Shown piece by piece: positions 26,912-42,643 of a DNA stretch of 64,000 bases (position 1 is its first letter; each line of letters begins with the position of its first letter). The notes beneath the pieces are model-generated. The model saw only the letters and a list, made by a program, of their open reading frames with translations. It searched no databases and was not told the DNA's origin. A program made the position numbers and the translations under genes. The DNA is from Aureibaculum luteum (lineage in GTDB: Bacteria > Bacteroidota > Bacteroidia > Flavobacteriales > Flavobacteriaceae): NCBI RefSeq assembly GCF_003449015.1, contig NZ_QRGD01000001.1:620001-684000 (forward strand). The letters run 5' to 3'.

Positions 26912-27499
26912 ATGAATAATAATTTATATCCGGTATTTTTAAAAGTTAAAAATCTGAATGTACTCATTGTTGGTGGAGGTAATGTTGCAGAAGAAAAATT
27001 AACATTCTTGCTAAAATCTAGTCCAGACGCTAATGTAACCATGGTTTCAACTATGTTTAGAGAAGCAACCGTTGCGTTGGCAAATAAATTTGGCGTAGAA
27101 ATGATTACCGATAAATACCATAAACGTTTTTTAAAAAAGAAACATATTGTTATCGCTACTACTGATAACCCTAAAGTAAATATTAAAGTTTATAATGATT
27201 GTCGCAAAAAAAGTAAATTAGTAAATGTAGCCGACAACCCACCTTATTGCGATTTTTATATGGGAGGAATTGTTACGAAAGGAAATGTAAAAATAGCCAT
27301 TTCCACAAATGGAAAGTCACCTACTACTGCAAAACGTCTTCGTCAATTTTTTGAAGAAGTTATACCTGAAGATGTAAACGAGTTTGTTGAAAACTTGAAT
27401 ACGTATAGAAAAACAATCAAAGGAGATTTTGAAGAAAAAGTAAAAGTACTGAACGAGATTACAAAAACATTGGTTGAAAAAAAAGATCCTAAAAATTAA
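26912..27499 (+). CDS. Precorrin-2 dehydrogenase / sirohydrochlorin ferrochelatase (CysG-B/Met8-like)
   Basis: This protein oxidises precorrin-2 with NAD+ to sirohydrochlorin and probably inserts iron to give siroheme, the cofactor of nitrite and sulfite reductases. It has 195 residues, the size of stand-alone Met8p/SirC-type proteins. The NAD site is LNVLIVGGGNVAEEKL (about 13-28). The catalytic segment is LVNVADNPPYCDFYMGGIV, and the dimerisation segment is IAISTNGKSPTTAKRLRQFF. Together with cobA at 36.4 kb it makes a complete uroporphyrinogen III to siroheme route for NirB, replacing a fused CysG. It is convergent with the rubredoxin gene and shares four bases with it. Confidence 0.92.
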   Translation: MNNNLYPVFLKVKNLNVLIVGGGNVAEEKLTFLLKSSPDANVTMVSTMFREATVALANKFGVEMITDKYHKRFLKKKHIVIATTDNPKVNIKVYNDCRKKSKLVNVADNPPYCDFYMGGIVTKGNVKIAISTNGKSPTTAKRLRQFFEEVIPEDVNEFVENLNTYRKTIKGDFEEKVKVLNEITKTLVEKKDPKN

Positions 27500-28917
27500 A
27501 TTTCAATCAATTTAAAAGTCGTTTTAGGCGAATCGCATACAGAACAACTATATGAACTGTTTAAATCTTCAAAAGCTGTTCCTGGATCAACATTAGCTTT
27601 TTTATCACCACAGACAGCACTATAAACTGAAAGACAATCTACACACTGATATACGGCTTCCTTCTCTTTTACATCAATCTTTTCTTTATCATCACTAACT
27701 ATTTCATTACCAAACCCCTCAAAATACTTTTTACTTAATTCCATAAGCAGACCTGATAATTCAATTTTATCAACATCTTGGGCATATACATTATACTTTT
27801 GAGTATTAGGATCAAATTTATCGCAATACAGTACATTATAAGTTGGTCTAATATCAAAATCTTTTACAATACTAGGTACAATATTCTTCTCAATAACTAT
27901 TGAAGTAAAATAAATATTACCTGCACCCCGATTTGCTATTGAAAAGGTTAAACCATAGGTACTAATATCATTTTGGTCAAAATCCATTACAATGAATTTT
28001 TTAAGCGACAACGCTTCTTCGTCATTTACAGGAATATGCCAATTCAATTCCAACAAAGAATGCCTAACATTAATTCCTGATTTACCTAAAAGTTTCTCTA
28101 ACATTAATTTACTTGCTTTTGGAATACCTTTTACAATAATTGATTTCCAAGGAGTAATACATAATTTACCCACCTTATTGTCTAGACAAAAATCACAAAA
28201 TTCTCTTAGAAAGTCTAAGTAATATTTATTATTTCTCCAATACAAACCAAGCCAATAGTGAGATGTACCTATTTTATTCATACCTTCATAATAAGGAAAA
28301 GGATGAAATTCTAATTCTAATTTAGAGTCAATGGTTCTACTATTCGTTTCAATACTATCATTTACAAGCTCAAAAAGTTCATCTACATTTTTTGTTTTTA
28401 AATACAACGCTTCAATTGTTTCAGAAATACTAGGAATATCCCAACTATTGATTAACACCTTATAATAAACTGACTCTGTCCAATTTGGTAATCTAAGATT
28501 TAGATACCAGTAATCTTCATGTTCAGATGCAATGAAATTTAATTGACCACTAAATAATGGAACCAATTGTTGTTTTGGGTCTGTAATATTAATTTTTAGC
28601 GACGGTTTATATTTAAAAGCTTCTAGTATATAAAGGTAGGTTACCCCACTCAACCATCTAGTTGATGGAAAAATATCTGAAGAGACGTAAGAACAAACTA
28701 TATTTTGGTAATTAGAATCAGAAACGATAGTGGAGTTTAAAGCTAGTGCATCATCTTCAAAATTAGCATCCGATACATATTCTGGAAATATTATATCTTG
28801 CCGTGACCCTAAATGTAAGGTGTCAAGCCCTAGAGATTCCGCATAATTAATAATCTGTTTTAACTCACTTGGAGATATAATTCCACCTTTTATTGATACT
28901 CCTTTTAAATCTTTCAT
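27496..28917 (-). CDS. Rubredoxin fused to a siroheme-less nitrite/sulfite-reductase-like protein
   Basis: In the 473 residues, the N-terminal 20-70 region (SIKGGIISPSELKQIINYAE, then LHLGSRQDIIFP) is a nitrite/sulfite reductase ferredoxin-like half-domain. A second such half follows from about 225 (SHYWLGLYW, then LCITPWKSIIVKGIP). The paired CxxxxxC/CxxxC motif that binds the [4Fe-4S]-siroheme centre is absent, so it should not be a reductase. The last 53 residues are a rubredoxin: C425xxC428 (YQCVDC) and C458xxC461 (YSCSVCDSP) bind one iron. The gene follows nitrate reductase by 54 bases on the same strand. It probably carries electrons to nitrate or nitrite reductase, or helps assemble one; that is inference. 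Confidence 0.8.
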   Translation of the reverse strand: MKDLKGVSIKGGIISPSELKQIINYAESLGLDTLHLGSRQDIIFPEYVSDANFEDDALALNSTIVSDSNYQNIVCSYVSSDIFPSTRWLSGVTYLYILEAFKYKPSLKINITDPKQQLVPLFSGQLNFIASEHEDYWYLNLRLPNWTESVYYKVLINSWDIPSISETIEALYLKTKNVDELFELVNDSIETNSRTIDSKLELEFHPFPYYEGMNKIGTSHYWLGLYWRNNKYYLDFLREFCDFCLDNKVGKLCITPWKSIIVKGIPKASKLMLEKLLGKSGINVRHSLLELNWHIPVNDEEALSLKKFIVMDFDQNDISTYGLTFSIANRGAGNIYFTSIVIEKNIVPSIVKDFDIRPTYNVLYCDKFDPNTQKYNVYAQDVDKIELSGLLMELSKKYFEGFGNEIVSDDKEKIDVKEKEAVYQCVDCLSVYSAVCGDKKANVDPGTAFEDLNSSYSCSVCDSPKTTFKLIEI

Positions 28918-28971: not shown

Positions 28972-31900
28972 TTAAACCTTAACTGTATTTAGTTTTAAGG
29001 TTTCTGAAAGAAAATGCTTTACCTCTGGCTTACAGCTCCCACATCCCATACCTGCTCCGGTGGTTTTACACAATTCTGTAAAATCTGTACATCCTTCTAA
29101 GATGGTATCTTCTAAATTACCCGTTCCTATTTGACTGCAAGAGCATACCAACTTACCTTTTACAGGAACAGATGAGCTATTTGACCTCAGAATTTCAGAC
29201 CTTTTATCTGATAATTCTATTTCATCTTCAATTAAAACTTTAAACTCGGCAAATTCATTTTTATCTCCCATTAATATTACCCCTACTAATTTATCATCTT
29301 TGATGATGCATTTTTTATAATACCTCTGAGAGATATCCATAAAAATTACTTCTTCATAAGACTTGTCATTAACTGGAGCTTTTACCATACCAATACTACA
29401 CAAATCTAAATCTTCAAATTTTAGTATATTCATTAGCACAGAACCTGAATAGATACTACTTAGATCTCCAAGTAAATACTTAACAACAACATCTGCTTGC
29501 TGTTCAGCTGCCGATGTTATTCCGTACAAATTATTATTAAATTCTGCAATTTCACCAATGGCATAAATATGTTCATCACTTGTTTGCAAATATTGATTTA
29601 CAATTACACCTCTTCGAGATTCTAATTTAGCTTGTTTTGCTAATTCTATATTTGGTAACGTACCAATAGCATAAACTAAAGCATTACAATTAATAATCTT
29701 ACCTGTTTTTAATGTAACCGACAATCCATCACCAACTTCATCGTCAAAAACAGTACTTACTTCATTGTCAAAATAAATTTGAATACCGCGTTCAGAAACG
29801 TCATCAGCCAAAAGCCTACTTGCAGTATTATCTAATTGACGCTCCATCAACCTTGAAGCTCTTTGTATTATGGTAACAGGGATGTTCTTTTTATTTAAAG
29901 TTGCTGCAAGCTCTAAACCTAACAGACCACCACCAACGACCACAACATGTTTGTCTTCATCTGGAAGCAGCGTTTTATCTAAATGTCGTTTTAAATTATC
30001 TGCATCTTGCCTACTTCTTAACGTAAACCGACCTGGCAGTTCTAAATTGGCATTAGTTGGAACAAAAGCCCTACTACCAGTTGCCAATATAAGCACATCA
30101 TAAGAATGCTCATCTCCATTACTATCAGTAATAACTTTATTCTCCTTATCAAGTTTATCAATTAGTACACCTGGAAACAACTTTAATTTAAGCTTTGCTA
30201 CTTCTCCTTTTTTTAGTTTTTCTAATTCTTTCCAACTAAGTTCATCACTTACATATTCTGGAAGTAAAACCCTATTATAAAAAATATCATCTTCCTTTGA
30301 AAATACTAAAATTTCATCATCTAAATTCCGTTCCCTATAACTTTGAATAAACCTATAGGCTGCTGCTCCTGCTCCAACAATACAAATTTTTTGTTTTTCT
30401 TTTTTGTACTTAGAAACCTCAACAGCACTATATTTATAATCGGGTTCTTTTGAGACAGGATCTATTAAATTACTAGTTAAATTATTTGCTCTACCAAAGT
30501 CTTCTCCTAAAATTCTGCCCCAGTGCATTGGCATAAAAACCACACCTTTTCTGATATCAAAACTCAACTTAACTTTAACTCTAACTTCCCCTCTATTATT
30601 TTTTATTATCGCTACATCTCCATCTTTTATCTTTCTCAAAAAAGCATCGACATTATTCATTTCTAAGTAAGGCGATGGAATATGCGTATTTAACCTATTA
30701 ACCGCACCTGTTTTAGTTCTTGTATGCCATTGATCTCTTATACGACCTGTTGTTAAAATTAGAGGAAGTTCTTCTGATAATTTTTCCGATTGATTTAATG
30801 TATGAACCGGAACATTAAACTGAGCGTTACCTGATGGTGTAAAAAACTTTTTATCAGTAAAAAGTCTTGGTGTACCATTATGAGTACTGTTAGGCACTGG
30901 CCATTGAAAACTACCTTCTCCTTTTAATCTTTGATACGACAAGCCTGAAATATCTATAGCAGTACCTTTAGTCATTAAACTATATTCATCAAAAACCTCA
31001 CTTGCATTTTCATAATCAAAACCATTAAAACCCATTTTTTGAGCAAATTTCAATAGAATTTCAAGGTCTGGTAACGCTTCCCCTGGCGGATCAATAACTT
31101 TATTTAAATAACTTATTCTTCTCTCTGAATTTGTCATTGTTCCTTCTTTTTCTGCCCATCCAGCCGCAGGCAACAACAGGTCTGCATATTTTGTGGTATC
31201 AGAGTTATGAGAGATGTCTTGAACAACAACAAAGTTTGCTTTTTTAAGAGCTTCCTCTACTTGCAGAGAGTCGGGTAAACTCACAACAGGGTTGGTACAG
31301 ACAATCCATATTGCTTTTAATTTCCCCGAATTTAACCCTTCAAACATTTCTGTTGCCGTTAAACCAGGATTTTCTGAAATCTCTTGACATCCCCAAAAGT
31401 TTGACACTTCTTTTCTATGTACTGGATTCGCCAAATCTTTATGTGCTGCTAACAAATTGGCCATTCCTCCAACTTCTCTGCCTCCCATAGCATTGGGCTG
31501 ACCTGTTAAAGAAAAAGGACCCGCTCCAGGTTTACCTATCTGACCTGTTAGCAGTGAAATATTAATTAACGATACATTTTTATCTACACCAATAACACTC
31601 TGGTTTAAACCCATAGTCCACATACTAATAAAAGCTTTTGACAAGCCTATATATTGCGATGCTTTTTTAATATCATTTACAGAAATGCCACATATTTTAG
31701 CAGCCTCAGAAAAAGAGGTTTTACACGCTTTTTCTTTAAGCTCTTCAAAATTATCAGTATGAATTTTTATGAATTTTTTGTCGATTAACTTTTTCTCTAT
31801 TAACCTTTTTGCAATGGCATTGTACAGTACAACATCAGTACCCGGTATAATTTGCAAATGCAAATCTGCAATGGCACATGTTTGTGTTTTACGCGGATCA

Positions 31901-32508
31901 ACAACAACAATTTTTACATTTGGATTTTCTTCTTTATGTTTTTCTAAACGTCTGAATAATATTGGATGACACCATGCAGGATTAGCTCCTGCTATTAGAA
32001 AACAATCAGCCAATTCTATATCTTCATAAGATATTGGTACTGCATCATCACCAACAGACTTCTTATAACCAACTACGGCTGAACTCATGCACAAACGTGA
32101 GTTTGTATCTATATTATTAGTTCCTAGAAACCCTTTAGTAAGTTTATTGGCTATGTAATATTCTTCCGTTAAACATTGACCAGAAACATAAAAACCAACA
32201 CTATCTGGACCATGTCTTTTTATTATTGATTTAAAAACAGCTGCAGCTCTTTCCATGGCCACATCCCAAGTCGTTTTTTGCAAGGGCAAATCTCTACTCC
32301 AACGCATTTCTGGATGTAAGATTCTATCAGAAGTATCTTGAACAACGTAGTTGAGATTCATACCTTTTGAACAAAGCATCCCTTTGTTTACAGAATACGC
32401 TTTATCTCCCTCAACTTTAAGTCCTCCTTTTGAATCTTTATGAACAACGATACCACAGCCTACACCGCAATAAGAACAAATTGTTTTATATGAATTACTG
32501 ATAGCCAT
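28972..32508 (-). CDS. nasA: Assimilatory nitrate reductase fused to FAD/NAD(P) reductase and BFD-like [2Fe-2S] domain
   Basis: This is an 1178-residue cytoplasmic enzyme reducing nitrate to nitrite. Residues 1-700 are a NasA/NarB-type molybdopterin subunit. The [4Fe-4S] cysteines are C11, C14, C18 and C46, the Mo ligand is Cys140 in NSRLC, and the cofactor C-terminal domain ends near FMPMHWG. From about 715 a FAD/NAD(P) reductase follows, as in NasC or NirB, with ICIVGAGAAAYRF and VVVVGGGLLGLELAATL. The end (about 1125-1175) is a BFD-like [2Fe-2S] domain with LVCSCSQIG and MGCGSCKPE. Flavin reductase and catalytic subunit, usually separate proteins, are thus one chain, so NAD(P)H can serve directly as donor. 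A palindromic NarL-like site and a -7 box stand in front. Confidence 0.93.
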   Translation of the reverse strand: MAISNSYKTICSYCGVGCGIVVHKDSKGGLKVEGDKAYSVNKGMLCSKGMNLNYVVQDTSDRILHPEMRWSRDLPLQKTTWDVAMERAAAVFKSIIKRHGPDSVGFYVSGQCLTEEYYIANKLTKGFLGTNNIDTNSRLCMSSAVVGYKKSVGDDAVPISYEDIELADCFLIAGANPAWCHPILFRRLEKHKEENPNVKIVVVDPRKTQTCAIADLHLQIIPGTDVVLYNAIAKRLIEKKLIDKKFIKIHTDNFEELKEKACKTSFSEAAKICGISVNDIKKASQYIGLSKAFISMWTMGLNQSVIGVDKNVSLINISLLTGQIGKPGAGPFSLTGQPNAMGGREVGGMANLLAAHKDLANPVHRKEVSNFWGCQEISENPGLTATEMFEGLNSGKLKAIWIVCTNPVVSLPDSLQVEEALKKANFVVVQDISHNSDTTKYADLLLPAAGWAEKEGTMTNSERRISYLNKVIDPPGEALPDLEILLKFAQKMGFNGFDYENASEVFDEYSLMTKGTAIDISGLSYQRLKGEGSFQWPVPNSTHNGTPRLFTDKKFFTPSGNAQFNVPVHTLNQSEKLSEELPLILTTGRIRDQWHTRTKTGAVNRLNTHIPSPYLEMNNVDAFLRKIKDGDVAIIKNNRGEVRVKVKLSFDIRKGVVFMPMHWGRILGEDFGRANNLTSNLIDPVSKEPDYKYSAVEVSKYKKEKQKICIVGAGAAAYRFIQSYRERNLDDEILVFSKEDDIFYNRVLLPEYVSDELSWKELEKLKKGEVAKLKLKLFPGVLIDKLDKENKVITDSNGDEHSYDVLILATGSRAFVPTNANLELPGRFTLRSRQDADNLKRHLDKTLLPDEDKHVVVVGGGLLGLELAATLNKKNIPVTIIQRASRLMERQLDNTASRLLADDVSERGIQIYFDNEVSTVFDDEVGDGLSVTLKTGKIINCNALVYAIGTLPNIELAKQAKLESRRGVIVNQYLQTSDEHIYAIGEIAEFNNNLYGITSAAEQQADVVVKYLLGDLSSIYSGSVLMNILKFEDLDLCSIGMVKAPVNDKSYEEVIFMDISQRYYKKCIIKDDKLVGVILMGDKNEFAEFKVLIEDEIELSDKRSEILRSNSSSVPVKGKLVCSCSQIGTGNLEDTILEGCTDFTELCKTTGAGMGCGSCKPEVKHFLSETLKLNTVKV

Positions 32509-32541: not shown

Positions 32542-32549
32542 CAAAGATA
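32542..32549 (-). promoter_or_regulatory. -7 box of nitrate reductase operon
   Basis: The minus strand reads TATCTTTG (TAnnTTTG), 34 bases before the start codon. No TTG -33 element is present; the NarL-like palindrome takes that place, as expected for an activator-dependent promoter. Confidence 0.6.
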
Positions 32550-32550
32550 A

Positions 32551-32576
32551 AAAATTACGTATTAATACGTAATTTT
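32551..32576. promoter_or_regulatory. Perfect 26-bp palindrome: 7-2-7 NarL-like site before nitrate reductase
   Basis: The core TACGTAT-TA-ATACGTA (32556-32571) is two inverted heptamers with a two-base spacer, the geometry NarL and NarP of E. coli use (TACYNMT, 7-2-7). Only position 4 (G) departs from that consensus. AT flanks extend the symmetry to 26 bases. The centre is 14.5 bases upstream of the -7 box edge, the same as at narK. Confidence 0.75.
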
Positions 32577-32665
32577 AAAGGTGTTATATATCGCTAAAAA
32601 TGAGCCTTTAATTTTAATGAATTACCAGAGAATAGCAGTTTATTAAACCGAATAAGTAATAAATA

Positions 32666-33346
32666 CTAGTTTAGACCTAGTTTTGAAGCTTTTACTGAAA
32701 GTTCTATTAAATTCTTCACATTCATTTTTTTCATCAAATTAAACCTATGTGTTTCAATAGTTCTCTTACTTTTATCTAGCTCTAGAGAAATTTCTTTATT
32801 GGTTTTACCCAATAAAATTAGTCGTAGAATTTCAATTTCCTTTTTTGTTAAGTGAAATTCATCAGTTACAACAGTAGCAGTATTACTTGAAACTTCAGCT
32901 GATATTATTGGTGAAGATTTTTTAAGCAGATTATTTACAATTACAGTACTAATATCTCCACTAAAATATTTTCCACCATTACCAACAGTATGAATAGCTT
33001 TTAAAACTTCCTCTTTACTGGCATCTTTTAGCAGATACCCCATAGCTTTTGCTTCAATAGATTTTAAAATATACTCTTCAGAATCATGCATTGACAACAC
33101 AATTGCTTTCGTTTTTGTTGGCTTTTGATTTAATATACTAACAGCATCAATACCATTCATTTCTGGCATTCTTACATCTATTATTAACAAATCTGGTTTA
33201 AATTTTTCAACCAATTGTAATGCTTCCTTACCGTTAGCAGCTTCGCCAACCACCTCTAAATCTTTTTCGTCTTCTAATAAATATTTCACACCATCTCTTA
33301 CAATGGCATGATCATCTGCTAAAACTATCCTGATTTTTTCCTTCAA
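32666..33346 (-). CDS. NarL-like response regulator of the nitrate island
   Basis: The 226 residues form a receiver domain (about 1-125; acidic pair DD 11-12, phosphoacceptor Asp57 in DLLIIDVRMPEMNG, signalling Lys in GYLLKDASKEE), a linker of about 35 residues, and a LuxR-type DNA-binding domain (LTKKEIEILRLILLG, then TNKEISLELDKSKRTIETHR, about 185-204). It stands alone between the porin and nitrate reductase genes; the only kinase in the island is the NarX/PilJ-like one at 40826-42643. It is the best candidate to bind the TACGTAT repeats. A -7 box (TATATTTG at 33367-33374) and a weak heptamer pair (33374-33389, AAGCTAT-TA-ATACTTA) in front suggest possible auto-regulation. Confidence 0.92.
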   Translation of the reverse strand: MKEKIRIVLADDHAIVRDGVKYLLEDEKDLEVVGEAANGKEALQLVEKFKPDLLIIDVRMPEMNGIDAVSILNQKPTKTKAIVLSMHDSEEYILKSIEAKAMGYLLKDASKEEVLKAIHTVGNGGKYFSGDISTVIVNNLLKKSSPIISAEVSSNTATVVTDEFHLTKKEIEILRLILLGKTNKEISLELDKSKRTIETHRFNLMKKMNVKNLIELSVKASKLGLN

Positions 33347-33366
33347 AATTATTCTGTTTGGGTCAT

Positions 33367-33374
33367 CAAATATA
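33367..33374 (-). promoter_or_regulatory. -7 box of the NarL-like regulator gene
   Basis: The minus strand reads TATATTTG, 20 bases before the start codon. A weak inverted heptamer pair overlaps its upstream side, with one arm matching ATACGTA in six of seven bases. Confidence 0.45.
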
Positions 33375-33497
33375 AGCTATTAATACTTAAATTTAAAAAT
33401 ATAACTAAGTACAAACACTCAATTACTATTTAAGTATTTTACTATTGAGAAAACCCTTCTTACAGCATAACAGTGTTTTAATTTTTAATAGATTCAT

Positions 33498-34763
33498 TTA
33501 CAAAAATTTTGGTTTGATAACCAACATTAACCAAACCCAATTTTGACCATTTGCAGCCAATGACTCATCCAATCCTTTCAACTCATACATACCATCTGAA
33601 GCAAACATTTGAGAGTAACCTGCTTTTAGTGTATATCCTTTAAATGAATGAGAAAAAACTAAATCCAATTCTGTTCCTAAGTTTTTTTCACCACTAGGTA
33701 GTTTTTGTTCTCCTGAAAAGTTTAATGCTTTTACTAAAAGACTTGATTTTTCTCCTAATTTGAAATTTGCACTCACATGCACATCCACCAATCCGATTGA
33801 GTTAGCATGATTACCAACATAAAAATAATCCATAAATCCGTTAAATTTATGATTTGTTCCATACAATGGAAAGAAAGCTCCTGTTTCACCAGCACCTCCA
33901 TCATTACCACTAATAACCTCGACTCCTAACCCCAAACTTACTTTATTACCTGCTTTTAAACTTAAATCTAAGCTGGCCAAATACGCTCCCTTTACATCAA
34001 CTTCACCTTGCCTTTTACCTGTTTGAAAATATAGGTTTCCTGCCAATCCAAATTTCCCTTTCTTATACTCTAAATGGGTACCAAAAGTTTGTAAATTACT
34101 AACCCCATCTCCTGTTTCTCCATCTTCATCAAATTCTTGAAATCCATTATTTAATGCTAAGAAACTTCCTGAAATTGACTTTCCTGATTTTTTCAGATAT
34201 AGATACTGCATTGATTTATACGAAAAATATCCTTTTGTATTATAGACATTTCCGGTTGATATAAATCCTGACGGGTTGTCATAATCTTGATTAAAAGCCA
34301 ACCCAAGGTCAAACATAAAACTTCCTTTTTTATATTTTAACAACGCGGCATCATGGTTACGCCCTTGTTGAGCCCAATCAAGCCCCCCCATTATTCTTTG
34401 ATCATCATATGCAATTGACTGGCGACCAAATTTAGTGGATACATTTTCACCCAATTTTAAATCAGCCCAAGCTTGAAATATTGCAAATGAATTATTATCA
34501 TCATCCGGTAAAATTTGCCTATTTTCACCCCAAACCATAACATCTTGAAGACTGATAAAAAGGTTTAACCCATCTGTTTTATACCCAAATTTTAACCTTG
34601 CCCTAGTTGACACACCAAAACCTGGCTCCGCATCTTTAGCGATTAAACTTCCAAAACCATTTCTAAATTCAGTTCGAGGTCTTAACTCACCTTCGAGTGA
34701 AAATTGTGCTGACATACACGATGTAAAAAACAACCCTAAAATTATTATTATAGATTTATTCAT
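33498..34763 (-). CDS. Outer-membrane porin, alginate-export-like family
   Basis: The 421 residues begin with a signal peptide (IIIILGLFFTSCMSAQ) and form a barrel of many short amphipathic strands. Family-like segments are FSLEGELRPRTEFRNGFGS, STRARLKFGYKTDGLNLFI, VSTKFGRQSIAYDDQRIMGG and DWAQQGRNHDAALLKY. These match the alginate-export (AlgE-like) porin family of Bacteroidota. The SCMS sequence could instead be read as a lipobox, but barrel proteins are not normally lipidated. The start follows narK by nine bases, so in this operon it most likely lets nitrate or nitrite cross the outer membrane; this role is inference. Confidence 0.82.
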   Translation of the reverse strand: MNKSIIIILGLFFTSCMSAQFSLEGELRPRTEFRNGFGSLIAKDAEPGFGVSTRARLKFGYKTDGLNLFISLQDVMVWGENRQILPDDDNNSFAIFQAWADLKLGENVSTKFGRQSIAYDDQRIMGGLDWAQQGRNHDAALLKYKKGSFMFDLGLAFNQDYDNPSGFISTGNVYNTKGYFSYKSMQYLYLKKSGKSISGSFLALNNGFQEFDEDGETGDGVSNLQTFGTHLEYKKGKFGLAGNLYFQTGKRQGEVDVKGAYLASLDLSLKAGNKVSLGLGVEVISGNDGGAGETGAFFPLYGTNHKFNGFMDYFYVGNHANSIGLVDVHVSANFKLGEKSSLLVKALNFSGEQKLPSGEKNLGTELDLVFSHSFKGYTLKAGYSQMFASDGMYELKGLDESLAANGQNWVWLMLVIKPKFL

Positions 34764-34772
34764 ATCTTTTTA

Positions 34773-36179
34773 TTATTTATCGGCCAATGCCACTCTTATT
34801 GGTTCAACTTCATCTGTACTCTCTTCTGTTGCAAACTTAATAGCCAATGAGGATACCGCTGCCAAAACAATTAATAAACTAATAATAAAATAACCACTAG
34901 AAACTGCGAAAGAAGAGGCTTGCCCTTGTGCAATTTCAATAACCTCAGCACCCATTCCTTGGTTAGAAGCTATAGCAGTTTGTTCGGCTACCGCTGATTT
35001 TGACTTCAATAACATGGCAGCTAAGAAAGCACCTACATTACCTCCTGCCCCGACTATTCCAGATATTGAACCTATCGCTTTTTTATTGATAAATGGGACT
35101 ACAGAAAAAGTAGCTCCTTCGGCCATTTGTACTGTTAAACTAAAAGCAATTAGAAATAAGATACCGAGAGGTAAATAAGTTATTGTAGAAAATATGGAAA
35201 GCATTACTCCTTCTAACGCCAAGATAAATGATAAAAACAACACCCTTCCTCTAAGCCCTCTTGACTTACCAAACATATCGCCAAAATAGCCACCTAATGT
35301 TCTTGCAAAAATATTCATCAAGGCAAAAGACAGCACAATATTCCCTGCCATAGACCTAGTTAAACCAAAGGTATTTTGAAGATAATCATCCATAGTACCA
35401 TATACCGTTAATTCAATTCCAAAACAGGCCGCATAAACAAAAAATAAAATCCACACTCTATAATCAGATAAAACTTCTTTAAAACCTACTTGATCTTTTT
35501 TAGAGGCTACAAACTCCCCTTTAGCCTTTAGTTCTTTAAAATTTCCAGCAGGCGTATCTTTCGTAAAAAAGAAATAAACAATCCCCATTAGAAAACATAC
35601 AAGACCAGCAATTACCATTGAATACCTCCATGCATTAGCTTCATCTGCCAAACCAAAACTAATTACAGCAGCCGCAATAATTGGCATCCCTAATCTATTA
35701 GCTCCACCACCTAAATTACCCCAACCTGCAGAAGTTGCATTTGCAGTACCAACAATGTTTGATGCAAACATTATAGAAGTATGAACCTGTGTTATAACAA
35801 AGGAAGCTCCAATAAAACCAATAAATAATCTACAGATTAAAAATTGTAGTGGAGTTTGTACAAAACCAATTAAGATTACGGGAATTGCTCCTAACATTAA
35901 CAACCATGTATAACAGAGTCTTGGTCCATATTTATCACATAATTTACCAATTACCAATCTAGCAAACACCGTTCCGGTTACCGCCAAGATAATTGAATTC
36001 CATTTTTGTTCAGGACTTAAACCTAAATCTTTAACCACATCTGGCATAAAGGGTACAATGCCAAACCAAGCAAAGAAACAAAGGAAAAAGGCAACGGAGG
36101 TAATCCAGAATGTTCTGGTTGAAATACTTTTGAAGTTTAATAATTCTAATTTACTAGCTTTTGGATAATTCGTAGTCAT
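34773..36179 (-). CDS. narK: Nitrate/nitrite MFS transporter (NarK/NasA family)
   Basis: This inner-membrane protein of 468 residues has about 12 helices and imports nitrate. The two nitrate-signature stretches are present as SAGWGNLGGGANRLGMPII (about 150-168, helix 5) and SGIVGAGGNVGAFLAAML (about 374-391, helix 11). The MFS loop motif is RLVIGKLCDKYGPR (about 74-87). It heads a two-gene operon with the porin. The promoter has a TACATTTG -7 box and a TACGTAT-TT-ATACGCA site at the same spacing as in the nitrate reductase promoter, so both should respond to the same regulator. Confidence 0.95.
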   Translation of the reverse strand: MTTNYPKASKLELLNFKSISTRTFWITSVAFFLCFFAWFGIVPFMPDVVKDLGLSPEQKWNSIILAVTGTVFARLVIGKLCDKYGPRLCYTWLLMLGAIPVILIGFVQTPLQFLICRLFIGFIGASFVITQVHTSIMFASNIVGTANATSAGWGNLGGGANRLGMPIIAAAVISFGLADEANAWRYSMVIAGLVCFLMGIVYFFFTKDTPAGNFKELKAKGEFVASKKDQVGFKEVLSDYRVWILFFVYAACFGIELTVYGTMDDYLQNTFGLTRSMAGNIVLSFALMNIFARTLGGYFGDMFGKSRGLRGRVLFLSFILALEGVMLSIFSTITYLPLGILFLIAFSLTVQMAEGATFSVVPFINKKAIGSISGIVGAGGNVGAFLAAMLLKSKSAVAEQTAIASNQGMGAEVIEIAQGQASSFAVSSGYFIISLLIVLAAVSSLAIKFATEESTDEVEPIRVALADK

Positions 36180-36216
36180 AGTTAAATATTTACAAGATTA
36201 ATAACAAATCATGTTA

Positions 36217-36224
36217 CAAATGTA
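36217..36224 (-). promoter_or_regulatory. -7 box of narK
   Basis: The minus strand reads TACATTTG (TAnnTTTG), 38 bases before the narK start. The NarL-like site occupies the -33 position. Confidence 0.6.
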
Positions 36225-36230
36225 AATATC

Positions 36231-36246
36231 TACGTATTTATACGCA
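36231..36246. promoter_or_regulatory. NarL-like 7-2-7 site before narK
   Basis: TACGTAT-TT-ATACGCA has one mismatched arm base against the perfect nitrate-reductase site. Its centre (36238.5) is 14.5 bases from the -7 box edge, identical to the other promoter. A weaker second site (TACGTAT-TT-TTACTAA, 36265-36280) lies 34 bases further upstream. Confidence 0.65.
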
Positions 36247-36366
36247 ATTTAATATATAAAATATTACGTATTTTTACTAATTTTTATACTATTCTATATT
36301 TAAGTGTGATTAAAATAAGTATTTAATAAAATCTAATTGCTCAACTTAGCAATATGAAATTATTAA

Positions 36367-37143
36367 TTATAAAGATAACTCTAGCACTCTTTGAATTTCC
36401 TCATCCATAAAAGAAGTACTTTCAGAGACAACATCACCAAAAACAATAATTCCAGGAACGGTCACATCTATTTCTTTAGCAATATTAGTAGCATTATTGA
36501 TTGTACCTGTCATTATTTTTTCATCGGCACAAGTACCATTCTGAATTACCGCAAAAGGCGTATACCCCTGTCTATATTTCTGTACCTCATTTATAAGTAA
36601 TGAAAATTTACGCAACCCCATTAACACTACTATTGTTGTGGAAGACTGTGCCGCAAGGGCAAAGTCTTTAGGTAAACTTCCATCAGAAACGGTCGCTGTA
36701 ATGACCCAAAAACTATTACTAATACCTCTCTTAGTCAAGGGTATACCCTGAGAGGCTGGTACGGAAATAGCACTAGTTACGCCAGGTACTAACTCCGTTT
36801 CTATACCACGACTTTCCACATAATCAATTTCTTCACTACCTCTGCCAAACACAAATGGATCACCTCCCTTTAACCGAACAACAGTACCATATTCAATAGC
36901 ATTGGTTACCAGCATTTCATTAATATCATCTTGAGAATACTTGTGATTATTATTTCTTTTACCGACATATATACAGGGTACATTTTTATTTGCATAACTA
37001 AGTATTTCTTTATTAACGAGTGCATCATATAATATGATATTGGCCTGCTTAATGGCATTATATCCTTTTATAGTTAACAAATCTTTATCCCCTGGTCCCG
37101 CACCAACTAATATAACTTTCGAATTTATTTTATCATTTTTCAT
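36367..37143 (-). CDS. cobA: Uroporphyrinogen-III C-methyltransferase
   Basis: The enzyme adds two methyl groups to uroporphyrinogen III to make precorrin-2, the entry to siroheme. The open frame extends 49 codons upstream, but those residues are unlike the family and run through the regulatory region. The ATG at 37143 (MKNDKINSKV) gives 258 residues, the normal size. Motifs are KVILVGAGPGDKDLLTIKG, VRLKGGDPFVFGRGSEE (SAM and active-site loop), ELVPGVTSAISVPASQGIPLT (catalytic region) and STTIVVLMGL. It is divergent from nirB and supplies the precursor that the CysG-B-like enzyme at 26.9 kb completes to siroheme. Confidence 0.95.
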   Translation of the reverse strand: MKNDKINSKVILVGAGPGDKDLLTIKGYNAIKQANIILYDALVNKEILSYANKNVPCIYVGKRNNNHKYSQDDINEMLVTNAIEYGTVVRLKGGDPFVFGRGSEEIDYVESRGIETELVPGVTSAISVPASQGIPLTKRGISNSFWVITATVSDGSLPKDFALAAQSSTTIVVLMGLRKFSLLINEVQKYRQGYTPFAVIQNGTCADEKIMTGTINNATNIAKEIDVTVPGIIVFGDVVSESTSFMDEEIQRVLELSL

Positions 37144-37187
37144 ATATATGTATAATTTAAGTGGGTAAAACTTATTATTCCACAATA

Positions 37188-37252
37188 ATACGTAATTGAA
37201 CCCAAATATTACGTATATTTTTCTAATAATTACGTATTTATACTTATTTTTG
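37188..37252. promoter_or_regulatory. Cluster of TACGTAT heptamers between cobA and nirB, with a nirB -7 box
   Basis: Three exact heptamers lie in the divergent region: ATACGTA (37188-37194), TACGTAT (37210-37216) and TACGTAT (37231-37237). The last is followed at two-base spacing by ATACTTA (37240-37246), an imperfect 7-2-7 site. A TATTTTTG -7 match (37245-37252) for nirB overlaps that arm; a second, weaker box is TTGCTTTG (37250-37257). Spacing thus differs from the nitrate reductase and narK promoters. Confidence 0.55.
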
Positions 37253-37279
37253 CTTTGTATAAATTGAAAATTATTAAGT

Positions 37280-39790
37280 ATGAAAACCATAATAGTTGTT
37301 GGAAATGGAATGGTAGGTTACAAATTTTGCGAAAAACTTGTAGCCAATGAAGAAAGTAAAGCCTTTAAAATAATTGTTTTTGGAGAAGAACCAAGACCTG
37401 CTTATGACAGAGTTCATTTGAGCGAGTTTTTTGCAAACCAAGATGCAAAAGCATTAGAAATGGCACCTGTAGAATGGTATATTGAAAATAACATTGAACT
37501 GATCATTAGTGAAAGAATAACGGACATTCAAAGAGCTAATAAAAAAATATCTACTGTTAAAAATCGTGAGTTTTCATACGACTATTTAGTACTAGCCACT
37601 GGGTCTTCAGCTTTTGTCCCTCCTATAAAAGGAGTAGAAAAAGAAGGTGTCTTTGTATATAGAACAATTGAAGACTTAGAAGGAATGCTTGCTTATGCTG
37701 CAAAATTAAAAGATAAGAATCCAAATGCGAGAGCCGCAGTTCTTGGTGGTGGGTTGTTAGGTTTGGAAGCTGGTAAAGCAGTTATGGATATGGGTTTAGA
37801 ACCACATATTGTTGAGTTTGCCCCAAAACTAATGCCAAGGCAACTAGATTCTAGAAGTAGTCAGGTATTGCAATTAAAATTAGAGTCTATTGGTTTAAAC
37901 ATACATTTAAGTAAAGCTACCAATCAAATATTAGGAGAACATGCCATCACAGGAATGGAGTTTGGAGAAGATGATGTGTTGGATGTTGAAATGCTAGTAA
38001 TTTCTGCAGGTATTCGCCCAAGAGATGAACTCGGAAAATCATGTGATTTAGAAATGGGAGTTCGTGGCGGAATTGTGGTTGACAATAAAATGCAAACTTC
38101 AGATGAAAACATCTATGCTATTGGTGAGGTTGCTCTTTACAACCAGATGATTTATGGATTAGTAGCTCCGGGCTATGAAATGGCAAATGTTGCTGTAGCT
38201 CAAATTTTAGGAAAACAAGAAACCTTAATGGCGGCAGAAATAGACATGTCTACCAAACTAAAATTAATTGGAGTAGATGTTGCCAGTTTTGGAGAACCAT
38301 TTATGCCTGCTGCCAAAGGACACTCTGTTATTTTTGAAAATAAAACACAACACCTTTATAAAAGAATTAACGTTAGCCTTGATGGCAAAAAGCTATTGGG
38401 CGGAATTCTTGTAGGAGATGCATCTGATTATAATATGCTTCACCAAGTGTATTTAAATAGTATGCCTATTCCTGAAGACCCATCTCAACTAATATTACCT
38501 GCAAGTGAAGGCGGAGCTTTTGGTAGTGCAATGGATTTACCAGATAACGCTGTAGTATGTTCTTGTGAGAATGTTACGAAAGGTCAAATTTGCTGTTCTG
38601 TATCTGATGATGGTAATGAAACACTTAAAGATGTAGCTCAGGCAACTAAGGCCAGTACCAGTTGTGGTGGCTGTAAACCCATGGTTGACGATTTGGTTAA
38701 AGAGACTTTAAAGTCTTTAGGTAAAGTTGTAAAAGAACGTATTTGTGAACATTTTGATTATTCGCGTCAAGAATTGTACGACATCGTTAAAATGAAAGAG
38801 ATTAAAGATTTTGACCTGCTCTTAGATACACATGGAACAGGAAATGGATGTGAAACATGTAAACCATTAGCAGCCTCATTATTTGCAAGTATTTTCAATG
38901 AAACTGCCAACAAGCAGGAAACTATTCAAGATTCTAATGATAGATATTTAGCCAATATTCAGCGTAATGGAACCTATTCTGTAGTACCACGTGTTGCAGG
39001 GGGAGAGATTAGCCCAAAACAACTAATTGCCATGGGGAGGATTGGCAACAAATATGATTTATACACTAAAATAACCGGAGGTCAACGTATTGTTATGTTC
39101 GGAGCACAATTACATGAACTTCCATTAATATGGGAAGAACTAATAGCCGAAGGTTTTGAAACGGGACAAGCCTATGGAAAATCATTACGAACTGTAAAAA
39201 GTTGTGTGGGATCTACATGGTGTAGATATGGTTTAGATGAAAGCGTAAGTTTTGCTATTGAAATTGAAAACAGATATAAAGGGATACGTTCTCCGCATAA
39301 ATTTAAAGGTGGTGTGTCTGGCTGTATCCGTGAATGTGCGGAAGCTAGAGGAAAAGATTTTGGTTTTATCGCTGTAGAAGGGGGTTGGAACATCTATATC
39401 GGTGGTAATGGAGGTGCAAATCCGAAACATGCCGTATTACTAGCAGAAAAAGTTGACAAAGAGACTGCGATTAAATATGCAGATCGTTATTTAATGTTTT
39501 ATATACGAACAGCACAGCCTTTAATGCGAACTGCCGCTTGGTTAGACAAGCTTGAAGGGGGTATTGACTATGTAAAAGATGTAGTAATAAATGACTGCTT
39601 AGGTATCGTAAAACAATTGGATGAAGAAATGCAATTTATGGTAGACACCTATAAATGCGAATGGACTGAAGCAGTAGAAAACCCAGAGATAAGAGCGAGA
39701 TACACTCATTTTGTCAATTCTGACGAAGAAGATAAAAATATAGAATTTGTTAACCTAAGAGAACAAAAAATGCCAACTCCTTGGGCATAA
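37280..39790 (+). CDS. nirB: NAD(P)H nitrite reductase large subunit
   Basis: This cytoplasmic enzyme reduces nitrite to ammonium with six electrons. Its 836 residues hold an FAD/NAD(P) module (IIVVGNGMVGYKFCEKL; AAVLGGGLLGLEAGKAV). Two BFD-like [2Fe-2S] segments follow (VVCSCENVTKG with SCGGCKP; CEHFDYSRQEL with GCETCKP). After the ferredoxin-like half-domain comes the siroheme-[4Fe-4S] site: C642 and C648 (SCVGSTWCRYG), C682 and C686 (GCIRECAEA). The length is near that of E. coli NirB (847). It heads an operon with nirD, a DUF4202 gene and a sensor kinase, and its promoter region carries several NarL-like heptamers. Confidence 0.97.
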   Translation: MKTIIVVGNGMVGYKFCEKLVANEESKAFKIIVFGEEPRPAYDRVHLSEFFANQDAKALEMAPVEWYIENNIELIISERITDIQRANKKISTVKNREFSYDYLVLATGSSAFVPPIKGVEKEGVFVYRTIEDLEGMLAYAAKLKDKNPNARAAVLGGGLLGLEAGKAVMDMGLEPHIVEFAPKLMPRQLDSRSSQVLQLKLESIGLNIHLSKATNQILGEHAITGMEFGEDDVLDVEMLVISAGIRPRDELGKSCDLEMGVRGGIVVDNKMQTSDENIYAIGEVALYNQMIYGLVAPGYEMANVAVAQILGKQETLMAAEIDMSTKLKLIGVDVASFGEPFMPAAKGHSVIFENKTQHLYKRINVSLDGKKLLGGILVGDASDYNMLHQVYLNSMPIPEDPSQLILPASEGGAFGSAMDLPDNAVVCSCENVTKGQICCSVSDDGNETLKDVAQATKASTSCGGCKPMVDDLVKETLKSLGKVVKERICEHFDYSRQELYDIVKMKEIKDFDLLLDTHGTGNGCETCKPLAASLFASIFNETANKQETIQDSNDRYLANIQRNGTYSVVPRVAGGEISPKQLIAMGRIGNKYDLYTKITGGQRIVMFGAQLHELPLIWEELIAEGFETGQAYGKSLRTVKSCVGSTWCRYGLDESVSFAIEIENRYKGIRSPHKFKGGVSGCIRECAEARGKDFGFIAVEGGWNIYIGGNGGANPKHAVLLAEKVDKETAIKYADRYLMFYIRTAQPLMRTAAWLDKLEGGIDYVKDVVINDCLGIVKQLDEEMQFMVDTYKCEWTEAVENPEIRARYTHFVNSDEEDKNIEFVNLREQKMPTPWA

Positions 39791-39813
39791 GTTTTCTTAT
39801 AAAAAATAATACA

Positions 39814-40194
39814 ATGTTAGATACACTATTAAAAGATTATAGCACGGTACAATTAGAAAGTGTTACCGTATGGTTTAAGGCTGCAGAAATTAGCAAATTT
39901 CCAAAAAACGGCGGTGCTTGCGTAAAGTATAAAGAAAAACAAATTGCTGTTTTTAATTTTTCTAGGCAAGACAAATGGTATGCGTGTCAAAATCTATCAC
40001 CAGAAAAAAAAGAAATGGTACTATCTAGAGGAATGATTGGAGATGATAATGGAATTCCTAAAATTGCTTGCCCTTTGCATAAAAAAACATTCTCATTAGA
40101 AACAGGTGAGAATTTAAATGGCGATTTAGATCCAATTGCAATATATCCAGTGAAAATTGAGGATAACTTTGTGTATATCGGATTTTCTGAATAA
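39814..40194 (+). CDS. nirD: Nitrite reductase small subunit
   Basis: This is the Rieske-fold partner of NirB. The ATG at 39814 (MLDTLLKDY) was preferred to an upstream TTG that overlaps nirB, giving 126 residues. The fold is seen in VTVWFKAAEISKFPKNGGAC, QIAVFNFSRQDKWYACQN, EMVLSRGMIGDDNGIPKIAC and PLHKKTFSLETGENL. As in other NirD proteins, the full set of Rieske [2Fe-2S] ligands is missing: CPLH survives at the second site but the first CxH is replaced by CQN. It is placed 23 bases after nirB. Confidence 0.92.
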   Translation: MLDTLLKDYSTVQLESVTVWFKAAEISKFPKNGGACVKYKEKQIAVFNFSRQDKWYACQNLSPEKKEMVLSRGMIGDDNGIPKIACPLHKKTFSLETGENLNGDLDPIAIYPVKIEDNFVYIGFSE

Positions 40195-40223: not shown

Positions 40224-40805
40224 GTGAATACAAAATACGAAAACGCGATAGCATTATTTGACAAAGCAAATTCAGATGATCCTAATAAAGAAATTTGGAA
40301 CGGCACAACGTACCCTAAAGAATTACTTTATGCTCAAAGAATGACTGAAAAATTAGATCTTTTTGAGCCAAATGCATCTTATGCTTTAAAATTGGCCGTT
40401 AGATGTCAACATATTTGTAGATGGCAAATACCAAGAGATTCTTATGAAATGAATAGAAAAGGTTATTTAACTTGGAGAAGTGACCTCTCTGTATTTCATG
40501 CTAAAACAGCATCAGAAATTCTAAAAACAGTTGGTTTTGATGAGGAATTCATAAATTCAGTCACTTTTCTTTTAAAGAAGAAACAACTTAAAAAAAATAA
40601 AGATACTCAGATATTAGAAGATGTAATCTGTTTGGTATTTTTAGACTATTATTTTGAGACTTTTTCAGGAAAATATTCTGAAGAAAAACTGATTGACATC
40701 TTAAAAAAAACATGGGCAAAAATGTCTGAAAAAGGTCATGATGAAGCAATGAAAATTAACTTCTCAAAAAATTCAATACAACTCATACAAAAAGCCTTAG
40801 CTTAA
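40224..40805 (+). CDS. DUF4202 domain-containing protein
   Basis: The 193-residue protein starts at GTG ([15 protein letters not shown]). It matches the DUF4202 family: [19 protein letters not shown], then [19 protein letters not shown] and [20 protein letters not shown]. Repeated His residues ([17 protein letters not shown]) in an all-helical protein recall HD-domain-like metal sites, but no activity is known to me. Its position between nirD and the sensor kinase ties it to nitrite assimilation or its control; function is not assigned. Confidence 0.85.
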
Positions 40806-40825: not shown

Positions 40826-42643
40826 GTGTCTAAACCTAAAAATAACAACATACTCGATAGTGTTATTTTCAAAAAATTAAGAAAGTTATATTTGCTTGCC
40901 TTTTTGGCAATAGCCATTACCATTTTAATTTCCCAATTATTAATTCAGAATCATATTAGTACTCAAATAAATGATTCAAGAGTAATAAATATTGCTGGTA
41001 GACAACGTATGTTAAGCCAGAAACTCACTAAGGAGATCCTATTCTTAAACGACAGTGACATTTCAGATGAAAGAACAGAAAAAATTAATCAAATAAAAAA
41101 AACGTATCAACTTTGGTCATCTTCTCACGATGGTTTAATTGATGGAAACCAAAAATTAAGTTTACCCAAAGAAAGCAATAAAGAAATACTAACCATGTTT
41201 TCTGAGGTTGCTCTTTATTTCTTACCTATAAAAAAAGCGGTTGAAAATTTACTTTTAAAATTAGAAAAGGAACCCAACACATCAATTACTTTACTTAAAA
41301 ATGAAACCAATACTATCTTAACAAATGAAACTGAGTTTTTAAAAGCGATGGATATTCTTGTTTTTAAATATGACGACATCAGTAAAGCCAAAGTAACTCA
41401 ACTAAAATATTTAGAGACACTTTTATTGGTATTTGCCTTAGTAATTCTAACTCTTGAAATTCTTTTACTTTTTAGACCATTTTCATTAAAAATTAAAGAT
41501 ACCATTAACGATTTATTGAAGACTAAAGAGGAAGCTGTTTTAAAAACCGAACAGTTAAATGAAATGTACATTGCTAAGGAAGAATCATTATTAGAACTAC
41601 AGCAATTAAATTACGCTATTGATAATACCGTATTGTTTGTGAGTACTAATTCAGAAGGTTCTATCTTACATATGAGCAAGAAGCTACAAAATCTATTAGG
41701 ACTTTCTACCAATACTTTAAAAGGAGCCATAGAAGAGCTACTTACCACTGATCTTGGGCAACAAATGTATTTAAAAGAACTTTTAAAAAACAAAGGTAGA
41801 ATATGGACAGGTGAGGTTCAGGTAAAAACTAAAGACGACACAGAGCTTTGGTTAGACATGTCTATTATTCCGCTAAAAAGAGTCAGTTTAAAACAAAAAA
41901 CGCTGATTTTATGTACGGATATTACACAACGAAAACATAATGAAACGGAACTAGAACGGATTTCACAAGAAAAATATCAAGAGGAAATAGAATCACAAAA
42001 GATTCTTTCTAGTAAAATTATTGAAGCTCAAGAAGAAGAACGTAAAAGAATAGCCAAAGACATTCATGATGGGATAGGCCAAATGTTAACCGCATTAAAA
42101 TTTAATGCAGAATCTATCAATTTGAATAATATTGAAGTTTCTCTTAAAAAAATTGAAAACCTAAAAGCCCTTTCTAAAGAAATTATTCAAGGTGTTAGAA
42201 TGGCAACTTTTAATTTGGTTCCACCGGAATTGACGGAGTTAGGTATTTCTTCTGCACTACAAACATTAACTGTTCAACTCTCAAAACTAACAGGGAAAAA
42301 CATTGTATTTCAAAATAAAACGGACTTTGATATTAAATTAGATTCTCTCACAGAGACAAATTTGTATAGAATTACTCAGGAAGCCGTAAATAATGCTATT
42401 AAATACGCAAAAGCTAATTATATTTTTGTTTCAATTAATCATAGCTCAGATATCATGAGCATAACCATAGCAGATGACGGTATTGGTTTTGACATTGATC
42501 AAGTTAAAACAAACACAGAAAAAGGTATGGGTTTATTATTTATGGAAGAACGCATTAAATATATAAATGGTAGGATATTTATTAACTCTGTAATTGGTGA
42601 AGGCACAAATATCACTCTAAATATTAAGTTAGATAAAATTTAA
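40826..42643 (+). CDS. NarX/PilJ-like nitrate-sensing histidine kinase with PAS domain
   Basis: This 605-residue kinase starts at GTG. Membrane helix 1 is about residues 21-40. The periplasmic domain carries [18 protein letters not shown] (53-70), the PilJ/NarX-type sensor motif whose NarX counterpart (P-box) binds nitrate. Membrane helix 2 is about 194-215. A short signalling helix leads to a PAS domain (about 255-375), then HisKA_3 with His414 in [15 protein letters not shown], and HATPase_c with [13 protein letters not shown] and DDGIGFD. It closes the nirBD operon, while the NarL-like regulator lies 7.5 kb away on the other strand; as the only kinase and regulator of the island they are probably partners. 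Direct nitrate binding is inference. Confidence 0.88.

Follow-up and report, generated by a model that had tools for sequence, protein, structure and literature searches.

A stretch of 64,000 nucleotides from Aureibaculum luteum (contig NZ_QRGD01000001.1, positions 620,001 to 684,000; hereafter the window) carries a nitrate-assimilation cluster in which a palindrome, TACGTAT-N2-ATACGTA in its perfect form, stands ahead of nasA, narK and nirB. This palindrome is probably the switch of flavobacterial nitrate-assimilation genes, and it is quite likely read by the response regulator encoded at 32666-33346 with the sensor histidine kinase encoded at 40826-42643 as its partner. As judged by sequence comparison, the operator is conserved, specific to certain genes, tied to the regulator/kinase pair and set at fixed distances from the -7 box; the identity of the binder, the control of its phosphorylation by nitrate and the sign of regulation are inferred. 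To our knowledge, an operator has been established for few Bacteroidota transcription factors, and little is understood of the way in which regulators engage the Bacteroidota sigma-A promoter (-7 box TAnnTTTG, weak -33 element). The present operator occurs in many natural examples, comes with a candidate regulator and kinase, and shows clean negative controls and discrete box classes. With it, the rules of activation or repression at a Bacteroidota promoter can be put to the test, as can the nitrate response of marine flavobacteria.

Conservation was assessed in Flavobacteriaceae. A full-length NasA-type enzyme (65-100% identity) was found in 46 of 199 family genomes, that of A. luteum included and each representing another genus; one genome with a partial NasA (G067, 43%) was excluded from this nasA+ group. 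From each of the 46 genomes, 15-40 kb around nasA were fetched, and the 300 bp upstream of each gene were scored. The strict palindrome was rejected as a search motif, as the half-sites are TACGTA or TAAGTA and many sites were missed; the refined operator is TAMGTA-N4-TACKTA. All 42 nirB genes scored had an exact refined operator upstream, as did narK in 24 of 31 genomes and cobA in 11 of 13, and it was also detected ahead of nasA (22/45), the regulator gene (24/43) and the outer membrane protein gene (2/19). The gene totals fall below 46 (nasA 45, regulator 43, nirB 42, kinase 41) because clusters leave the fetched stretches or continue on other contigs, and the nasA of G071, which is interrupted by a stop, was counted as lacking a site. 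The operator is missing at 23 nasA genes, of which 18 lie directly behind an operator-bearing narK, two lie behind a narK without an exact one, and three are unexplained. No exact operator was found in the 173 control upstream regions (nirD 42, DUF4202 gene 42, kinase 40, rubredoxin-domain gene 43 and cysG-N 6; one of the 41 kinase regions was too short), and the reversed pattern had no exact match in any scored upstream region of this set. Over the 1.64 Mb of loci, 157 exact operators were counted vs 1 match to the reversed pattern. Identified cluster genes have 117 of the operators in their upstream regions, 39 are elsewhere intergenic, in the sense of outside open reading frames (ORFs) longer than 450 bases, and one is inside nirB.

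A second set of 80 named loci, which includes Polaribacter, Arenibacter, Flavicella, Lutibacter, Maribacter, Cellulophaga, Zobellia, Aquimarina and Tamlana, gave at least one operator in each locus and 216 exact sites in total, vs 1 for the reversed pattern. These loci stop 10 kb from nasA, which lowers the gene totals; exact operators preceded nirB in 26 of 27, cobA in 20 of 21, narK in 24 of 29, nasA in 70 of 80, the regulator gene in 19 of 65 and the outer membrane protein gene in 7 of 50, and none was found in 147 control regions. The two sets overlap in species and hence are not independent, and the counts ignore kinship. Conservation takes the operator far beyond chance. The preliminary description of the window had proposed a nitrate regulon, and its motif is indeed kept upstream of orthologous nas, nir and narK genes in the related flavobacterial genomes scanned.

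Counts within a single sequence were uninformative when used alone as evidence. Allowing up to three mismatches to the palindrome, the window holds five matches, and at least five were also reached in 19 of 100 shuffles. Over the 5.1 Mb genome, up to two mismatches gave 15 palindrome matches vs 27 for the reversed-pattern control, and up to one mismatch gave three matches, all in the nitrate cluster (reversed pattern, 1), about three being expected by chance at 32% GC according to our own arithmetic. The number of sites in the window and the genome is therefore unremarkable, and it is their placement that stands out; since the genome count is close to the chance expectation, the case rests on conservation. 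The same unremarkable counts are what would favor the explanation that the sites are chance palindromes in AT-rich promoters. This explanation, to which we assign practically no weight, is already refuted by the exact-site counts (157 vs 1 and 216 vs 1 against the reversed pattern, with 0/173 and 0/147 in control regions), and it also has to face ten copies of TACGTA in two promoters of a locus of 61% GC, where 0.42 are expected.

The regulator at 32666-33346 is the best candidate binder of the operator because the motif and the regulator/kinase pair occur together. A close match to the sensor half of the kinase (E below 1e-30) was present in 42 of the 46 nasA+ genomes vs 0 of the 153 nasA- family genomes, 11 of the latter having weaker matches. 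A regulator of at least 45% identity lies within the fetched stretches in 43 of the 46 genomes, and G180 carries it on another contig. Across 107 aligned regulators, the recognition-helix positions R-T-x-E-x-H-R-F-N-x-M are invariant. Outside the family, 18 sampled genomes had a NasA-type enzyme and two of them had both the regulator (54-57%) and the kinase (36-43%); operators or dense half-sites were observed in 2 of 2 clusters with the pair and in 0 of 16 without it. In G383, where the pair is present, four exact operators were found, one before narK and one before nirB, and in G368, likewise with the pair, the ten TACGTA copies mentioned above precede nasA and nirB. In the 16 genomes without the pair, no regulator match anywhere exceeded 43%, and their clusters had no operator in the fetched stretches and no TACGTA in the nas promoters examined; since only about 1.6 copies were expected by simulation in these 50 upstream regions, the result is to be read as an absence of enrichment. 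One copy of TACGTA was seen in G498, which was counted with the pair-bearing clusters, and this number was reached by 6.4% of simulations. The promoter architecture had initially been described as shared and specific to Bacteroidota; it does not extend to the whole phylum, as 16 of the 18 nas clusters examined outside the family are without both pair and motif. More distant sensor/regulator pairs (regulator 35-43%) were seen in G379 (C23:64023-66069) and G437 (C1:6812412-6814537), the latter beside nirB; their examined nas promoters contain no TACGTA, and they are candidates for a changed operator and may read another site.

Several observations weigh against this assignment. The regulator was absent from the fetched stretches of G051 and G036, and G180, which has operators, showed no close kinase sensor among the matches listed. 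G002, G082 and G030 also gave no close sensor match, with the other part of the kinase present in their clusters. Additionally, the regulator gene of the window genome has no operator of its own at up to three mismatches to the palindrome, G368 has half-sites and no exact operator, and the core is common in some nasA- genomes, with at least one copy in 90 of 153 and up to 19.

Another transcription factor might read the site, such as a CRP/FNR-type protein encoded near some clusters. The gene of this protein occurs in 16 of the 46 clusters and has an operator upstream in 8 of these 16, which links it to the regulon; however, the other fetched stretches, among them the window, have the operator and lack this gene. 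Moreover, TAMGTA is a half-site of the FixJ/LuxR type (PMC4999443), paralogous LuxR-type regulators adjoin TACGTA-N4-TACGTA sites, and of all gene families shared by 30 or more of the 46 genomes, only that of the regulator has a DNA-binding domain. Altogether, reading of the site by another factor is improbable.

The distribution of sites supports their description as a nitrate-assimilation regulon. The operator precedes the gene for the NMT1_2-type binding protein of a presumed nitrate ATP-binding cassette (ABC) transporter in 17 of 19 genomes, a second transporter gene of the major facilitator superfamily (MFS) in 5 of 6 and moeA in 3 of 11. Genome-wide, the exact pattern occurred at least twice in 46 of 46 nasA+ genomes (mean 7.2) and in 58 of 153 nasA- genomes (mean 2.3), kinship being uncorrected. 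In several nasA- genomes, the core TACGTA-N4-TACGTA stands beside other LuxR-type regulators. Thus, of the tie between motif and nitrate genes that had been suggested at first, the specificity against control regions stands, whereas exclusivity does not, as the core is also present in genomes without nasA. The core directly follows a paralogous LuxR-type regulator gene at L138:866-1516 and in G195 (C23:13729-14183), both without nasA, and in G107 (C8:1081142-1081459); three core copies within about 450 bp were seen in G195 and in G107, and a very short possible membrane-protein frame follows in L138.

The distance between the operator and the promoter box was then compared among genes by scanning TAnnTTTG in both orientations. 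Offsets were taken from operator start to box start, and those with at least four sites are reported. Three classes were observed. At offset +14 (class A), the box shares the last TA of the operator, with 72 sites in the 46-genome set and 101 in the named set. Offsets of +22 to +26 (class B), in which the box lies 8-12 bp further on than in class A, accounted for 35 and 36 sites, those of nasA and narK in the window among them, and offsets of -15 to -17 (class C), with the box ahead of the operator, for 12 and 15. Other offsets had a mean of 0.3-0.5 sites each, with +47 slightly raised (4 and 6). Measured from operator centre to box centre, the spacing is 10, 18-22 or -19 to -21 bp, in each case near a whole number of helical turns. 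The -7 box of Flavobacterium psychrophilum is at -12 to -5 (PMC9723704); with this borrowed placement, the operator centre would fall near -18.5 for class A, between -26.5 and -30.5 for class B, and at roughly +11 to +13 for class C. Class A is made up mainly of nirB (56 of 169 sites), narK (33) and nasA (28), class B of the regulator gene (23 of 73), nasA (17) and narK (17), and class C of the ABC-transporter gene (25 of 32).

A rescan of the window confirmed every coordinate first given for the three repeats and for the single heptamers at 36265, 37210 and 37188, as well as the equal spacing of nasA and narK, whose boxes both start 6 bp past the operator. As had been noted, these two operators lie where the -33 element is expected, and class B operators in general cover this place. 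For nirB, two spacings had been considered and regarded as deviating; the 6.5-bp alternative holds, and it is not an oddity because no other spacing is as common across genera. Of 165 class-A promoters, 7 had a TTG at the -33 place (offsets 22-24), vs 46 of 221 controls, and an earlier, smaller comparison gave 0/86 vs 21/199; the controls of both comparisons are predicted boxes and not mapped promoters. A conserved -33 column was looked for ahead of nirB and narK and was not found. Retention of a normal -33 element at promoters with a downstream operator (7/31) was considered and dropped, as five of the seven cases came from one other gene group and TTG was seen in only 2 of 25 ABC-transporter promoters. 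Further half-sites lie past the -7 box in many nirB and narK promoters; in many genomes (e.g., L073 and L101), an extra ATACGTA half-site is placed downstream of the box, just ahead of the nirB start codon. The promoters of the nitrate ABC transporter also carry, some 40-75 bp before the operator, an extended conserved stretch (like TATGTTTTAAAAAGAGG ... CATA), for example at about 4200-4350 of L072. This stretch had no Rfam match at the gathering threshold in five loci, and it is perhaps the site of another regulator.

In the proposed mechanism, a dimer of the regulator would bind the 16-bp inverted repeat TAMGTAT-N2-ATACKTA and control nasA, narK, nirBD and cobA here; in other genera its targets would include a nitrate-type ABC transporter and, in many cases, the regulator gene itself, with nitrate presumably governing phosphorylation of the regulator through the PilJ-PAS kinase. 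At class B promoters, such as those of nasA and narK in the window, the dimer would replace the missing -33 contact; at class A (nirB) it would lie against the -7 box, and at class C (ABC-transporter promoters), where the site is past the box, it would repress.

Activation from the upstream sites is our leading reading of the sign, and we consider the chances about even. The operators are restricted to discrete, roughly helix-phased positions with almost none between, and the -33 element is depleted at class A. Additionally, the usual logic of NarX-type sensors fits activation. The same regulator and operator could also work by pure repression, in which the bound dimer covers the -7 box when nitrate is lacking and nitrate releases it, a possible though somewhat doubtful scheme. 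Both the limited, phased positions and the depletion of -33 argue against it, and it would require the kinase to be active when nitrate is absent, opposite to NarX and NarQ. In its favor, the -7 box contains the end of class-A operators, those of class C lie just past the presumed transcription start, half-sites occur past the box as described above, and the sites of the ABC-transporter gene fall on either side of the box, differing by genome. This gene has class A, B or C positions in different genomes (11, 4 and 25 sites), which suits a repressor. These positions also count against activation, as do the overlap of class A with the box where DNA melts, the location of class C past the box, and the weakness of the -33 element in flavobacteria, which was not identified in Flavobacterium johnsoniae in the part of that work consulted (PMC7366714). 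The LuxR-type regulator had initially been taken for an activating binder; its candidacy as the binder stands, whereas the site past the box at the ABC-transporter gene points to repression at least there.

A dual mode, such as that of NarL in Escherichia coli (PMC8199190), would fit all these observations. We tentatively suggest that a LuxR/FixJ-type regulator may activate Bacteroidota promoters from operators placed one or two turns of the helix before the -7 box, where at class A it would share the TA and replace the -33 contact in a way more MerR-like than NarL-like, and that the same protein may repress from about two turns downstream. Among the papers listed in the literature searches, none provided useful nitrate expression data for flavobacteria.

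Table 1. Genes of the nitrate-assimilation cluster and promoter elements in the window.
Feature	Position	Strand	Remarks
Rubredoxin-domain protein gene	27496..28917	-	C-terminal rubredoxin domain; follows nasA; control gene, without operator
nasA	28972..32508	-	assimilatory-type nitrate reductase fused to NirB-like FAD/NAD(P)H and BFD-type half
nasA -7 box TATCTTTG	32542..32549	-	TAnnTTTG, starts 6 bp past operator
nasA operator TACGTATTAATACGTA	32556..32571	-	perfect palindrome; class B, centre about -26.5 if box at -12 to -5
Response regulator gene	32666..33346	-	Response_reg and LuxR-type helix-turn-helix (HTH) domains; TTG start as called; candidate binder
Outer membrane protein gene	33498..34763	-	Alginate_exp type; operator in 2/19 relatives, none here
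narK	34773..36179	-	nitrate/nitrite MFS transporter
narK -7 box TACATTTG	36217..36224	-	TAnnTTTG, starts 6 bp past operator
narK operator	36231..36246	-	one mismatch; class B
Single heptamer upstream of narK	36265..36271	+	
cobA	36367..37143	-	uroporphyrinogen-III C-methyltransferase
Single heptamer, cobA-nirB intergenic region	37188..37194	-	
Single heptamer, cobA-nirB intergenic region	37210..37216	+	
nirB operator TACGTATTTATACTTA	37231..37246	+	one mismatch; class A, centre about -18.5; also upstream of divergent cobA
nirB -7 box TATTTTTG	37245..37252	+	overlaps operator, last TA common to both
nirB	37280..39790	+	nitrite reductase large subunit
nirD	39781..40194	+	control gene, without operator
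DUF4202 gene	40224..40805	+	control gene, without operator
Sensor histidine kinase gene	40826..42643	+	PilJ-type sensor and PAS; candidate nitrate sensor

The genes and promoter elements of the cluster are listed in Table 1. The best named match of the window NasA is that of Aureibaculum flavum (97%). For cobA, the mechanical ORF starts at 37290 and overlaps nirB; the start at 37143 was chosen, as it gives a better family fit and leaves a 136-bp intergenic region. Pfam identified PilJ (PF13675, E 2e-12), PAS, HisKA_3 and HATPase_c in the kinase and found neither HAMP nor GAF. In a sequence comparison with solved nitrate sensors, the kinase gave no match below E 0.02 (PilJ 0.028; chemotaxis transducer 6gcv, 0.086). 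The regulator scored below the curated cut-offs of the NarL (151 bits vs 250), NarP (119 vs 343) and FixJ (80 vs 255) models. At full length its closest match is NarL, and its HTH domain alone scored 45 bits with EsrB, 36.5 with the FixJ domain entry, 31 with NarL and 29 with full-length FixJ; the likeness to FixJ is thus modest at the protein level and clear in the half-site. A Flavo-1 RNA match was also seen in the locus of a relative (L081:12846-12924).

The regulator/kinase pair itself is not new, because Bacteroidetes nitrate-type sensors have already been grouped and their genes labelled narHK/narRR (PMC8199190). That class was described as a sensor kinase without HAMP or GAF-like domains, with PAS in Flavobacteriales, encoded together with a response regulator among nitrate genes (PMC8199190). 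By this description the window pair fits the class, with PilJ and PAS, neither HAMP nor GAF, and a regulator gene among nitrate genes; for the Bacteroidetes pair, the portion of the source consulted names neither a DNA site nor target promoters and gives no sign of regulation. Among the papers listed in the literature searches, as judged by titles and abstract openings, there was no nitrate operator for Bacteroidota and no operator or regulon for narHK/narRR. With NarXL and NarQP the window kinase shares a PilJ-type periplasmic nitrate sensor, and it differs from them in having no HAMP and GAF-like domains.

The NarL heptamer is TACYNMT. The flavobacterial half-site differs from it in having G in place of Y and in allowing A at position 3; among the left half-sites of nirB, position 4 is G in 42 of 42 and position 3 is A in 22 of 42. 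Of the NarL-style operator that the preliminary description had recognized, the 7-2-7 inverted-repeat geometry stands, whereas the half-site TAMGTA is nearer to the FixJ consensus than to the NarL heptamer. As in E. coli NarL and NarP, there are 7-base inverted repeats with a 2-bp spacer, extra single elements and nitrate genes, including nirB, as targets (PMC7419079, PMC2718512). In the portion of this literature examined, NarL activates ogt from -44.5 and -77.5, in contrast to the centres of about -18.5 and -26.5 to -30.5 estimated here.

Rhizobial FixJ is also a LuxR-type response regulator with a similar recognition helix, and TAMGTA is contained in its consensus GTAMGTAG from systematic evolution of ligands by exponential enrichment, the fixK site being the 16-bp TAAGTAATTTCCCTTA (PMC4999443). 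FixJ responds to oxygen through FixL and targets fixK and nifA, whereas the partner here would be a PilJ-PAS kinase, and the footprints at the Sinorhizobium meliloti fixK promoter lie at -69 to -44 and -57 to -31 (PMC4999443). The flavobacterial operator thus appears NarL-like in its geometry and FixJ-like in its half-site, with a promoter position that matches neither in the literature examined. MerR-type activators bind a dyad operator that occupies the promoter spacer immediately before a -10-like box, with the -35 element kept. Their dyad-before-box placement is alike, although they belong to an unrelated protein family and retain the -35 element.

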